Source: Liolophura sinensis (Eukaryota; Mollusca; Polyplacophora; Chitonida; Chitonidae). From it: 64,000 nt of DNA. The DNA lies in the NCBI RefSeq assembly GCF_032854445.1, contig NC_088298.1:20113295-20177294 (forward strand). The letters are read 5' to 3'. Shown piece by piece: positions 1,842-48,000 of the stretch; position 1 is the first letter of the stretch; each line of letters starts with the position of its first letter. The notes under the pieces were generated by a model. The model did no database searches and was not told the origin of the DNA. It worked only from the letters and a program-made list of their open reading frames with translations. Position numbers and translations under genes: made by a program.

Positions 1842-4800
1842 GTGAGTATGCACACCTTTGAAGGAAGTTTCATTGTGGTTGGTCAGCAAAGAATTGGCTG
1901 GTTCCTTAATGTCTATCATGAATGTAAGTACAAATACTCTCCCAAAATGATACTTAATTTAAAAATTCTGTGAATAAGAGGGGCCAACTAAAGTGGAAAT
2001 GTCTTTATGGTGTCAGCAGCTTAATGAAAAGGCGTCTGATGAAAATTGTTTCATGCACCTGTGAAAATATGGTTTTACTGTAAAATTATGTAAAATTTGT
2101 GGTTAAACATGTCTCCGTGCAAATACAATAGGGATATCTTAATTCGCAATAGTCCTTCCATGTATTTATGTGTGTGAGCGTGTGTGCAAATGTATTTATG
2201 TGTGTGAGCATGTGTGCAAATGTATATATGTGTGTGAGCGTGTGTGCAAATGTATTTATGTGTGTGTGCAAATGTATTTATGTGTGTGAGCGTGTGTGCA
2301 AATGTATTTATGTGTGTGAGCATGTGTGCAAATGTATTTATGTATGTGAGCATGTGTGCAAATGTATTTATGTGTGTGAGTGTCTGTGCAAATGTATTTA
2401 CTTGTGGATGGGATTTCACATACATTTTCATCTAGGGCCTAGGGCATGAAACATGCTTTGCACAAAAAGGGGCCTGTTCATTTTATAACATTTCAGCACA
2501 GTTTCCAAGGCCATATCTAGAAAAACTTTATAGGTTCTGATCCCAGACTTTAATTGTGACATTATGACTGTGCTTAAAGACATTTTAAAAATGCAGCTGA
2601 ATGTGATGTTTTTAATTCTGTGAATGAAAACCTAACTTTTAATTGGAAAACCATCAATTTTTTGTTATTTACTAATTAGACCAAACCTTTTCCTGAACCA
2701 AAGTAACTAGATATGACCTTGGCTTCTGCTATTCTTCTTCGCTTTGTAATGTCGTAAATAGACATGGTGTTTATCTCTGATCGTGTACACCTTCTCCCAA
2801 ATCTTGCCAATATATTTTCCAGAAGAATGGTAGTATTTCACCTAATGGTTAGTATTGTGACACATTTTGCTTGAAAAGTAGTTCTGACAGCTATCACCGT
2901 TGATGTCACCATGGATTGCTACTTACTTTCTGGACTGACCGCTGGGGTCTTGGGAAAACTGTAGTTTAAAACCATTTTTATGCTCCACAAGCAGAAAACT
3001 GAGAAGCTTATTTCTTTACTTTTACTTTGCCACATCATATACAGCATCTTTCTCTGGCCGTAAATGGGAAGGTCTACCAGCAACCTGCGTATGGCCGTGG
3101 GTTTTCCCCAGCCTCTGCCTGGTTTCCTCCCACTATAGTGCTGGCCGCTGACGCATAAGTGAAATATTCTTGAGCACGGCGTGGAACACCAATCAAATAA
3201 ATAAATATACAGCATCTTAAAAAATAGAAACCAAGCGTTTCATGGATTCTTTAATTCAGATTGATTCATCCACCTTTAGAGAAAAAGTCCTCTAAAAATC
3301 GAAGTAGGCGTCACTAAATAGGCCACTTAAATCTGTGCACCAATATATTCTCATTTAATTTTTTAGATTTCTGTGAATAGAGTTAAAGACATTCAAACAT
3401 ATGAATTCTAAGGTGGATTTTATGGACTATACTATCACAGAGTAGGAACTCTCACGTCACAGGAAGTGTTTCCAACTCTGATCACGACACTAAATGCTGG
3501 AATAACTTTTTTTACCCATGGGTAAAAGATTACTGAAATGTTCCCAAAAATTCCTTTCTTCTGGTAAACATCGGGAAAAAAAAGCTGTGTGACGTCAGAG
3601 TTCCTAGATACTGTCAATATGGCTCATAAAGCCCACCACAGTATTCAGATATTTGAATGCCTTTCAACACTTTTAAAAAAATGAGAAAAAATAAATAAAA
3701 GTATTTTTACATATAGTTTTCTGTTGTCTATATGATGAACCTAACTTCATATTTTAGCTTTCTTTTACTTTAATGAAGGACCACTTCAGATTTTTGTGAA
3801 GTTTAATTTCTTATCAGAAAAACTTAAGTCAGTATCAGAAGTATCATTTTAAGGTTCTTGTGTGCTTCTGAAAGTGCATTTTTGTACTTCAAACTTTTGG
3901 TGAAATACGATATTTCTTGATGTCCTCTTCAGTAAAACCCTCTAGCAGCAGTGCGTCCACTTCCAAGGATGTCAAAGATGGGGGCGATGCAGATGCCAAG
4001 AGGACCAGTTTCCCACCCGATGTCATATTTCAGGGAATAACAGCTGTGTTTCCGGACCGTGGGAAACCAGTGGAGCTGAAGGAATAGTAAGTGTAATGGT
4101 CAAACACTCTCTAACATATGGGAATAACAATGGTGTTTCCAGACCATTGCAAACCAGTGGAGCTGTAGGAATAGTAAGTGTAATGGTCAAACGGTCTGTA
4201 ACATGTGGGAATAACAGCGGTGTTTCCAGACCGTGGGAAACCAGTGGAGCTGAAGGAATAGTAAGTGTAATGGTCAAACACTCTGTAACATGTGGGAAAA
4301 ACAGTGGTGTTTCCGGACCATGGGAAACCAGTGGAGCTGAAGGAATAGTAAGTGTAATGGTTAAACACTCTGTAACATGTGGTAATAACAGTGGTGTTCC
4401 CAGACCGTGGGAACCAGTGGAGCTGAAGGAATAGTAAGTGTAATGGTTAAACAGTCTGTAATGTGTGCAAAGGGAAGCTTTAGGGTGAAATTGAGAGGAG
4501 GTCAATAATATTTAATTTTTTAACAGTGATTAAATATAAAATGTGTGACTAAGCAGTTCATGCATCATGTACATTATATAATTTGGCTGGGAGAGGAAAG
4601 TCATATCCAAAAACCCCCCTCCTCCACTCACTTTTTTGGTGTTGGCACTTTTCTTTCATCAATATGGAATTCTGTATGTCATATTTTTGGAAAGTTTGCC
4701 TGTAATTAAAATCCGTGCTTCCAACCATAAAATGGATTGTTATCGTTTAAGTGAAAAATTCTTCCTCTGCCCAGTTTCCTCCCATCCAGTTTCCTCCCAC

Positions 4801-45000: not shown

Positions 45001-48000
45001 TGGAACATGGGATGATATTCTACTGGAAAATTGTAAGTTTCTGCAACAAAGATAATATTTTGTTATGTTTTATTTGCATCTAAAAATGCACTTACATGGG
45101 CGAAATTTTAGGTCACTTAGGGTAAATCTTCTTTTTGTATCCTGACTGATATTAACATTGAGAGGAATTGTAGTGAAGACAAATTCCCGAAGGCTCATTT
45201 TTTGGTGGGTCTGTCTGGTTATGCCCAACACGAACAAACATTTTGTAAAGATGTCCAAAAGCATTTATACTTGTGAAATATTCTGTGCAGTTCTGAACAT
45301 TTTTTTACTTGACTTTTTGCATGACCCTGCCTGCAGATCTAGATGAGCCTCAATTTTATTTGCAAAATATCTTTTTTAGTTTTTTGGGTGGCTTGTTGGA
45401 AAAACAGCTGTTTGTGTTATTTTCTTGTTGATTGTACGACCATTGTTTTCTTAATATGTACATTCTTTAAGTATTAATTCTAAAGTGGACTTCACTTGAG
45501 TGCCAACACTTACTCTGTACATCTATTGGCACATCCTTTAACTACATGGCAATTCTTTGCAATTAAATTTTACTTATATGTAGTTTACGGTAATTGGGCA
45601 ATTTTATCGAATATTTTGGTATGATAAGTAATTAGTTGTAAAATTTTGAGAGCTTTTGAAGATCAGAAAAAGTATTGAAAAGTATCAACTGACAAGCTCA
45701 TATATTCATCCAGTATTTGATTGTTTAAATAAAACAAAATGTTAAAATTTAATAAAATACATTAAAAATATTGTTCCTTGTAGAAAAACAAAAAGCAAGG
45801 TAAAGGTGCATACAGCAAACCTCAGCCAAAGAAAGAAAATGAAAAGCGTGACAGGACGCGACCAAACAACAGTGGTGACTCCAAAACAATAAAACAGTTG
45901 CTCGGGGAGTTGTATGGAGACAAAGAATTTCTGGAGCGTCTCTTACAAGATGAAAGTAATAATTGGTGTTTTTGTCCCTTTTTTTTTTTTTTTTTACATT
46001 TCTTGTTGTTTGTTTTCATGTTTGCTTTAAAAGAAAGATTTGAGAATAACTGTCACAGGATGAAAGAGGAATTAAAATTGATCAGATTTTGATCAGATTT
46101 TGTCAATGAACCAGATATGTTAGCAGAAGATCAACCATGAGATCAAAGATGATGGAATGCTAATGCTCAGGGAGCTTTTGCACAACAACACCAAAAAAAA
46201 AAAGCAAAAGAACAAAAAAAAAAAAAGACATGGTTCCTGTTGAAAATTAAAAAAAATTGAAGTTTGTTGAGTCTGTTTTGTTTGATTACAGGTGTGACAG
46301 GTAGAGACACATCCACCAGTCAGGAAGTGAAGAACCTTATTCTAGATGGCCTAGAATACCTGGACACAAGGACAGAGTTCTGGAGACAGCAAAAACCATT
46401 GTACGCGCGGAAAAGGGATCAGCGGCTGCGCGCCATGGGGCGTGAGGGAAAAACGGGTAAACAGGCCAACCCAACGCGATACGTGCTGCGCAGTCTGGAG
46501 GAGATTGATGAAGGTGTGATATATGCCCTCTTGTCTGAGCTTCGTTTGATATAAAAAGGCATATTTAGATGCTGTTTTTGAATATTTGAAAGTATTTCCT
46601 GGATTACTCAATGTTTCCTGCATTTCATGTGAAGTATAGAATTTAAATTTTCACGCGGCACATTTTTCTTAATTTTGATTGATTCATTCATCATATAGGG
46701 TCTCTTAAGATTTTTTTTTGAAGTTTGATTAATTTCTTAGCAGAAAAAGTAAAGAATTGGCATCAAATGTTTCAATTTCACATACCAAACTACTGTTGAA
46801 ATACAGTAAATTGGGTAAATTTATTTATTTATTTATTTGATTGGGGTTTCACGCTGTACCCAGGAATATTACACTTATACGGCAGCATCATGGTGGGAGG
46901 AAACTGGGCAGAGCCCTGGGGAAACCCACGACAATCCACAGGTTGCTGCCATACTTTCCCACTTATGGCCGGAGAGGAAGCCAGCATGAGCTGGACTTGA
47001 ACTCACAGCGACCGCATTGGTGAGGGGATCCTGGGTCATTATGCTGTGCTAGCACGCTAATCAACTGAGCCATGGATGACCCATTTGTGCAAATTAATAT
47101 GTATACTAACAATGTGTGTATTTGTTCGTAGAAGATTATCTAACAACAAGTTCTGACAACATTTCCACTTTAACTGGTTCATTTTTCTCAAAAAGGCTGA
47201 GTCACATAAGACGATGAAGCATGGATTTTATTTAACTTATTTCAACTCACTTTCAATGCAAATACTAGAAAAAAAAAAGCTGCAAAACTGTTATATCTGC
47301 AAGGAATGGATTATGACTTTGTTGTCATGTTTCAGCTCAGTCCCAGGGTAAATATCAGAAAAGTCTTGACAAAGCTCAAAAGACACTGAAAACTGTCCAG
47401 GGTTGGTCAGACGAGGAAATCCTTAATCGCGAGGAAATCATCGCAAATCTTCACAGCCAGATAGGAAATGCTCATCTGGAGATGGGCAGATATGACATCG
47501 CCCTGGATCATCATGAACAGGATCTGGAGATCGGAGAACAAAAGTAGGTATAGTGGGGTGGAAAATGAGGGCTTAAAAATAGGTATAGTGGGGTGGAAAA
47601 TGAGGGCTTAAAATAGGTATAGTGGGGTGGAAAATGAGGGCTTAAAAGTAGGTCAAGTGGGGTGGAAAATGGCTTAAAAGTAGGTCATATGGAGTGAAAA
47701 AACAGGTGGGGAAAAATATTGTGTTGGTATATATCTGTTGATTTTCCATCTAATTGACACTTAACTTCATTTGCTCATGATATAAAGTAATATGAAGCAC
47801 TTCCAGAAATCATATCAGTCTGATATGAAATGCATGATTTACTTTAAATATGTGGTAAAAACAGCATATGATTTTGTTCATTTTTCTTGTATGACAGTAA
47901 CCTGGCTGAAGCAAAGTCTCGGGCTTTGGACAACATTGGGAGAGTGTATGCAAGGCGAGGCGATTATGAAAATGCCATCGGCATGTAAGCCACGGTGATT

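Follow-up and report, generated by a model that had tools for sequence, protein, structure and literature searches.

Why would tandem arrays in the introns of a chiton begin inside the preceding exon, so that the tail of the exon and its 5' splice site recur again and again downstream? The question arises from a 64,000-nucleotide stretch of the Liolophura sinensis genome (C4:20113295-20177294, here called the window; the genome comprises 609 Mb in 632 contigs), in which the genes for EZH2 (Enhancer of zeste homolog) and ODAD4/TTC25 (outer dynein arm docking complex subunit 4) both carry arrays of this kind. An earlier note on this DNA had proposed a process that expands tandem repeats from exon 3' ends. 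The arrays are probably better seen as exon-intron boundary minisatellites, or “mirages”, that is, as the outcome of ordinary tandem duplication filtered by splicing, with the donor side the more permissive of the two.

Arrays that straddle donors in two genes

Each splice junction in the window was scanned for self-matches running through it, and the scored matches were compared with the arrays reported by Tandem Repeats Finder (TRF). Four of 27 donors sit in a repeat that begins inside the exon and copies the exon tail and the donor into the intron. Their self-match scores are 156, 34, 121 and 50, those of the remaining 23 donors at most 11, and all four agree with TRF arrays (87, 41-83, 53 and 35 bp):

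4033-4461, forward strand: donor array 1; donor 4086/4087, 87-bp unit, 4.9 copies
19156-19489, forward strand: donor array 2, degenerate; donor 19169/19170, unit of about 41-83 bp, 14 bp of it exonic, GTAGTGCCGACT followed by the intronic GTAAGT
38027-39588, forward strand: donor array 3; donor 38045/38046, 53-bp unit, 29.4 copies, including 19 bp of exon 37892-38045 and the donor
47540-47701, forward strand: donor array 4, the weakest; donor 47543/47544, 35-bp unit, 4.7 copies, only 3-4 exonic bp

The unit of array 1 consists of 54 bp of exon 3933-4086, the donor and 33 bp of intron, and GTAAGT is kept in all four of its copies. GT is retained in 10 of 12 scored copies of array 2, in 29 of 29 of array 3 and in one of three of array 4 (none of two under another scoring). 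In translation, the exonic portions of arrays 1-3 align with the EZH2 and ODAD4 chains in the PDB, so that the repeat derives from the exon. A genome search found no second locus for the units of arrays 1 and 3, although such searches can miss matches. As regards homogenisation within the arrays, the first unit compared with the others gives 0.862 in the EZH2 array and 0.856 in the ODAD4 array, and the others compared among themselves 0.824 and 0.843.

The two genes are unrelated, as the earlier note had it, and its four array-bearing introns were all recovered, out of 27 delimited introns (13 in EZH2, 14 in ODAD4) rather than the 30 it had counted. Its statement that the arrays start exactly at the donor does not hold, because they begin 3-54 bp upstream, at varying places. 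The coding sequence of both genes reads on normally across the exons in the spliced translations, from which the following limits were taken:

1634-26488, forward strand: EZH2, C-terminal 14 exons, translation open to the final stop; PDB 5wg6, E 4e-255
1634-1841, 3933-4086, 5459-5622, 7623-7714, 8111-8288, 10705-10859, 13670-13764, forward strand: EZH2 exons 1-7 of the 14
19003-19169, 21623-21736, 22067-22128, 23156-23251, 23465-23546, 25534-25699, 26429-26488, forward strand: EZH2 exons 8-14 of the 14
35857-54546, forward strand: ODAD4/TTC25, 15 coding exons used, from the ATG; PDB 8j07, E 5e-146

An independent sample of myosins and kinesins

How often donors are straddled was measured outside the window, in 48 clusters of myosin and kinesin genes that were chosen from the same genome without regard to repeats. 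For the myosins (at least 81 matches to PF00063), 20 stretches (163 kb) with 11 genes were taken by exon density and size; for the kinesins (at least 132 matches to PF00225), every listed match was used, together with 420 bp of flanking sequence on each side (96 stretches, 120 kb). To call exons, the similarity of paralogous proteins was combined with GT/AG signals; the myosins yielded 110 exons (109 donors, 110 acceptors) and the kinesins 140 (138 donors, 140 acceptors). Among the latter, 15 have either no donor (2) or a weak one (13, score below 0); the 13 weak donors stay in the count and some myosin donors also score low, so that the position of some donors may be wrong. Excluded before counting were, in myosin gene A, three donors and three acceptors that belong to repeated exons (all three donors and two of the three acceptors had matched sister exons), and locus L040, whose “exon” was taken as an intronic copy of the tail of the L039 exon; 243 donors and 246 acceptors were left.

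At a score of at least 25, straddling repeats are found at 12 of 243 donors (myosins 6/106, kinesins 6/137) and at 3 of 246 acceptors (myosins 1/107, kinesins 2/139). In about one sampled exon in twenty, the end of the exon thus recurs several times in the next intron, usually together with the splice signal. Three further donors were not counted, at 9089 in myosin B (score 16, with arrays of similar sequence downstream), at 2853 in myosin C (15) and in L112 (15), and one acceptor, in L026 (24), enters only at a threshold of 20. In nine cases read by eye (six kinesin, three myosin) the exon tail always recurs in the intron, by only a few bases in L105, and GT is present in most or all copies of eight of them, the ninth, L087, having GG in both copies. 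Donors exceed acceptors by Fisher's test (P 0.019; 0.044 at threshold 20, with 12 vs 4), more so when the window is included (16/270 vs 4/273, P 0.006). Bootstrapping over the 48 clusters places the donor rate at 2.0-8.3 % and the acceptor rate at 0-2.7 %, with P 0.007 that donors are not above acceptors and P 0.02-0.04 that they are not above random points.

The tail of the kinesin exon in L039 (C11:27412983) forms an array and recurs 1.7 kb further on, in L040 (C11:27414708), where the Pfam search scores it as a separate match; a stretch of intron copied from the end of an exon can in this way pass as an exon in a protein search, which is a hazard for annotation. L001 (C1:26636901-26646900) holds a myosin heavy chain gene of the muscle type in which sets of exons are nearly identical, presumably what are called mutually exclusive exons.

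Donors compared with random intron points

If the protein is to remain intact, a donor lying in an array must lie in its first unit, so that the fair null is the frequency with which random points fall in a first unit. Random points were placed at least 60 bp from called exons, in intervals that may contain undetected exons. They fell in a first unit in 49 of 2500 cases in myosin introns and 49 of 2500 in kinesin flanks (within 430 bp), or 98/5000 in total, and in a last unit in 72 and 55 of 2500, or 127/5000. The donor excess over random intron points is modest, about 2- to 2.5-fold. The corresponding counts for intron points in the window are 58/2500 for first units and 94/2500 for last units, so that about 0.6 of 27 donors would be expected to be straddled. 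Chance placement is thus less rare than the earlier note had supposed, and its four donors are indeed an excess, although one found in a window picked after the fact and much above the independent rate.

Arrays are common throughout introns, as random points often lie in some repeat unit (606/2500 in myosin introns, 402/2500 in the window, within 3 kb). In the published repeat table (PMC11068029), simple repeats, microsatellites and RNA add up to 0.08 % and unclassified repeats to 14 %, vs these 606 of 2500 points in myosin introns.

Array donors lie in phase 2 in 8 of 16 cases, window included, vs 61 of 254 other donors (P 0.034); without the window the proportions are 6/12 and 58/231 (P 0.086), and over all three phases P is 0.12, all of these comparisons being post hoc. 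GTAAG itself carries TAA in the phase-2 frame. A link between array donors and a base other than G at position -1, suggested by eye in the window (4/4 vs 5/23 others), was discarded, as 12 of 12 array donors in the sample have G there.

Are donors targeted?

Three things bear on a process aimed at donors: where arrays lie, where the donor lies within the unit, and which words the arrays contain. TRF coverage in the first 25 bp past donors is 6 % in the myosins and 5 % in the kinesins, as compared with 24 % (800-1600 bp) and 13 % (400-800 bp) deeper in the intron, the last kinesin bin, which reads 0, being one that can hold few bases. Immediately before acceptors, coverage is 0 % in the window, 2 % in the myosins and 3 % in the kinesins, rising to 25 %, 25 % and 15 %. 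In the sample, coverage therefore drops towards both splice sites. Over 16 arrays (values entered by hand), between 0.04 and 0.93 of the unit is exonic, a spread compatible with a uniform distribution (Kolmogorov-Smirnov P 0.33); the position of the donor within the unit is thus not fixed.

Genome-wide, the donor word AGGTAAGT in spaced triplicate gives 672 matches vs 509 for its reversed control (1.3-fold), and the acceptor word TTTCAGAT 548 vs 164; these counts are crude, as they include overlapping matches, were listed in part and are dominated by large arrays. As single words in 347 kb, the donor word occurs 20 times vs 13 reversed (about 1.5-fold, overstated because this sequence is rich in exon ends) and the acceptor word 37 times vs 15. 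Within the limits of this weak and crude test, the genome-wide pattern count shows no excess of the donor word in arrays beyond its own frequency.

Splice signals in the copies

The donor GT is kept in a fraction of 0.87 of copies (16 arrays), close to the 0.83 for 59 other GTs of the same units, which argues against strong purging and lends little support to upkeep; the average in 43 non-straddling arrays of the myosin sample is 0.78. The decoy donors look neither clearly maintained nor purged. Among the 14 arrays with at least four scored copies, 11 keep GT in every one. Modal dinucleotide conservation among copies is 0.94 at the donor vs 0.85 at random positions (P 0.005; L087 and myosin E 13762 were left out of this test of arrays with at least four copies, ODAD4 47544 lies below the minimum, and myosin B 9089 is in). 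Retention of GT against the exon copy is 0.90 vs 0.74 (P 0.011; 15 arrays, L087 and myosin E 13762 again left out). A Mann-Whitney P of 0.0005 for GT retention was set aside, as it compares single sites with array means. In some arrays the copied donor has changed: seven of seven printed copies in myosin G 2784 differ from the true donor at +3, six of six copies in L023 read GTAATG, and both copies in L087 have GG.

If the reading frame is followed beyond the first donor, a stop codon in frame lies inside the first extra unit of 13 of the 16 arrays; two of the three others have frame-shifting units, L023 being the exception (unit lengths in this test and in that of GT retention were entered by hand). 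With a stop or a frameshift in 15 of 16 arrays, a normal protein would require the first donor.

Repeats at acceptors

The earlier note had stated that no array straddles an acceptor, and in the window itself this is contradicted by one repeat:

25265-25574, forward strand: acceptor-straddling duplication in EZH2, two copies, 25265-25356 repeating 25483-25574; acceptor 25533/25534

The match lies 218 bp upstream, covers 51 intronic and 41 exonic bp and scores 50, the remaining 26 acceptors of the window scoring at most 9. In the upstream copy the AG is lost (TACAA for TACAG). Outside the window, the three acceptor-straddling repeats are those at myosin C 2696, in L022 and in L109.

What generates the arrays

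The reading given at the outset, which we consider probable, would work as follows. A general process that fills introns with minisatellites would tandemly duplicate a segment that happens to span a junction, and then amplify it. At a donor, the first copy would stay joined to the whole exon and the mRNA would remain intact, provided that the first donor is the one used; the extra copies, decoy donors included, would become intron and could persist almost without cost. On the acceptor side, added copies would come first in the transcript and offer earlier AGs, and fewer would be expected to survive. On the best reading of the data, a donor-seeking process is not needed for the pattern. Several observations nevertheless weigh against this account. 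A pure filter predicts a rate at or below that of random points, and the donor excess (P 0.003; 0.013 with arrays collapsed to one unit) is thus left unexplained by filtering alone, although it might be explained in part if the exonic half of donor units decayed more slowly. The acceptor deficit is weak (P 0.13 vs random last-unit points; 0.06 collapsed; 0.25 with L026, at 4/246), and coverage in the window is flat on the donor side, with 15 % in the first 25 bp and 20 % at 800-1600 bp. Finally, the upstream copies mostly retain their AG in the three acceptor arrays found outside the window (in 14 of 14 printed copies, of 50, in myosin C, 7 of 8 in L022 and 9 of 13 in L109). A decoy AG is therefore not always harmful, and the stricter proposition that upstream AG copies must die at acceptors, true of the EZH2 repeat, is refuted by these three.

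Some of these same points would favour a mutational process targeted to donors, in which R-loops, U1 binding or transcription-linked slippage seed arrays at exon 3' ends: the excess over random points, the 4:1 ratio of donors to acceptors, and the four of 27 donors in the window with its flat coverage. In its fullest form, the 5' splice site would be a true origin of minisatellites in this chiton lineage, with transcription- or splicing-linked duplication across donors about twice as frequent as elsewhere, about 5 % of introns carrying decoy-donor arrays, and possibly a preference for phase 2. Both the process and this fuller form appear unlikely, given the reduced coverage beside donors in the sample, the variable exonic share of the unit, the existence of acceptor arrays and donor-word counts that stay within word frequencies. 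What the earlier note inferred therefore survives as recurrence in other genes and as an excess of donors over acceptors and over random points, and loses the aim at exon ends; the enrichment at donors that it called for is present in the 48 clusters as a modest excess with no fixed offset. Pure chance, with arrays falling anywhere, a few covering donors, and a window picked because it was striking, would account for the fall from 4/27 in the window to 12/243 outside and for an acceptor rate not significantly below random, and the gene-level bootstrap against random points is itself modest. It is also unlikely, since donors differ from acceptors and from random points in a sample chosen regardless of repeats. 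Selection for redundant donors, as backup splice sites, for U1 recruitment or for regulated splicing, could draw on the retention and conservation of GT described above. We regard it as very unlikely: the remaining GTs in these units are retained almost equally well, so that selective upkeep of the decoys is not upheld despite the P values of 0.011 and 0.005, the donor is weakened or lost in copies of myosin G 2784, L023 and L087, and use of the second donor would in nearly all arrays spoil the protein. Least probable of all is that the introns are newborn, arising by tandem genomic duplication in which a duplicated AGGT supplies both intron ends. Tandem copies with AG/GT are the starting point of that model, as set out in PMC3443670; the acceptors of the four array introns in the window, however, are no copy of the donor region (self-match 5-8), and the repeated exon is in each case the upstream one only.

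Other features of the window

Ordinary arrays that touch no splice site were also found by TRF in the window:

12122-13134, forward strand: mid-intron array with a 175-bp unit
2160-2400, 6836-7388, 19877-20607 and 20877-21287: other arrays of this mid-intron kind

A small multi-exon gene occupies 33376-35333 on the minus strand, with its start near 35333; it is too poorly delimited for its introns to be counted, and Pfam gave no family for its joined translation. A dispersed element with a tail like AATCAAATAAATAAATA was seen by eye on both strands at about 1040-1160, 3070-3210, 18660-18800, 22550-22700 and 32570-32740, and elsewhere, and also causes spurious protein matches between sampled loci.

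Relation to known systems

The assembly, published as Liolophura japonica according to the genome paper (PMC11068029), was afterwards corrected to L. sinensis (PMC12441733). In the main text of the former, the words “tandem” and “intron” do not occur, and in the consulted text of a second chiton genome paper (PMC12005716) each occurs once, in other contexts.

The earlier note knew of no named system for such arrays. A name exists, however: mirages, as described in PMC3087553, are minisatellite-like tandem duplications of exon-intron boundaries in amphioxus, found in the globin genes BflGb6 and BflGb9 and in Adh3. The repeats there measure 10-72 and 150-160 bp; splicing is reported to be regular and length to be unstable. 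Similar amphioxus repeats are mentioned for troponin C and PGBD5 in PMC3902484. The chiton arrays belong to this known kind; as for the rate and the donor bias measured here, a search of an open-licence full-text library turned up no quantified donor-vs-acceptor rate or donor bias for boundary arrays. The original Adh paper is said to be that of Canestro and others (2002), which we know only through papers citing it, and a report of 2007 reportedly traced human introns to tandem arrays.

If about 5 % of the donors in the genome of a mollusc precede tandem copies of themselves, that genome offers a large natural experiment in how the spliceosome chooses among near-identical 5' splice sites, and the donor arrays would be raw material for intron growth and exon extension. 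The chiton arrays may be set beside two other systems. Human boundary repeats in segmental duplications are likewise minisatellites, of about 30-bp units, at exon-intron boundaries, but in PMC2812944 they are tied to novel or alternative introns in recent paralogs, whereas in the chiton existing introns are lengthened. Intron gain by tandem genomic duplication, as described in PMC3443670, shares the duplication of DNA with splice signals and differs in that the donors and acceptors of the four window introns are not mutual copies (acceptor score at most 8).

The closest likeness remains that to the amphioxus mirages. The chiton units also span the exon-intron boundary, at donors and acceptors both in the window and outside it; both the 5' and the 3' ends of introns are affected (the latter in EZH2, with two copies, and in myosin C, L022 and L109); and splice signals are present in many, not all, copies, as in amphioxus, where unit lengths run from 10 to about 160 bp (PMC3087553). 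The two differ in that the host here is a mollusc and there a cephalochordate, and in that the chiton arrays, known from the sequence of one assembly, come with a rate measured against a random-point control.

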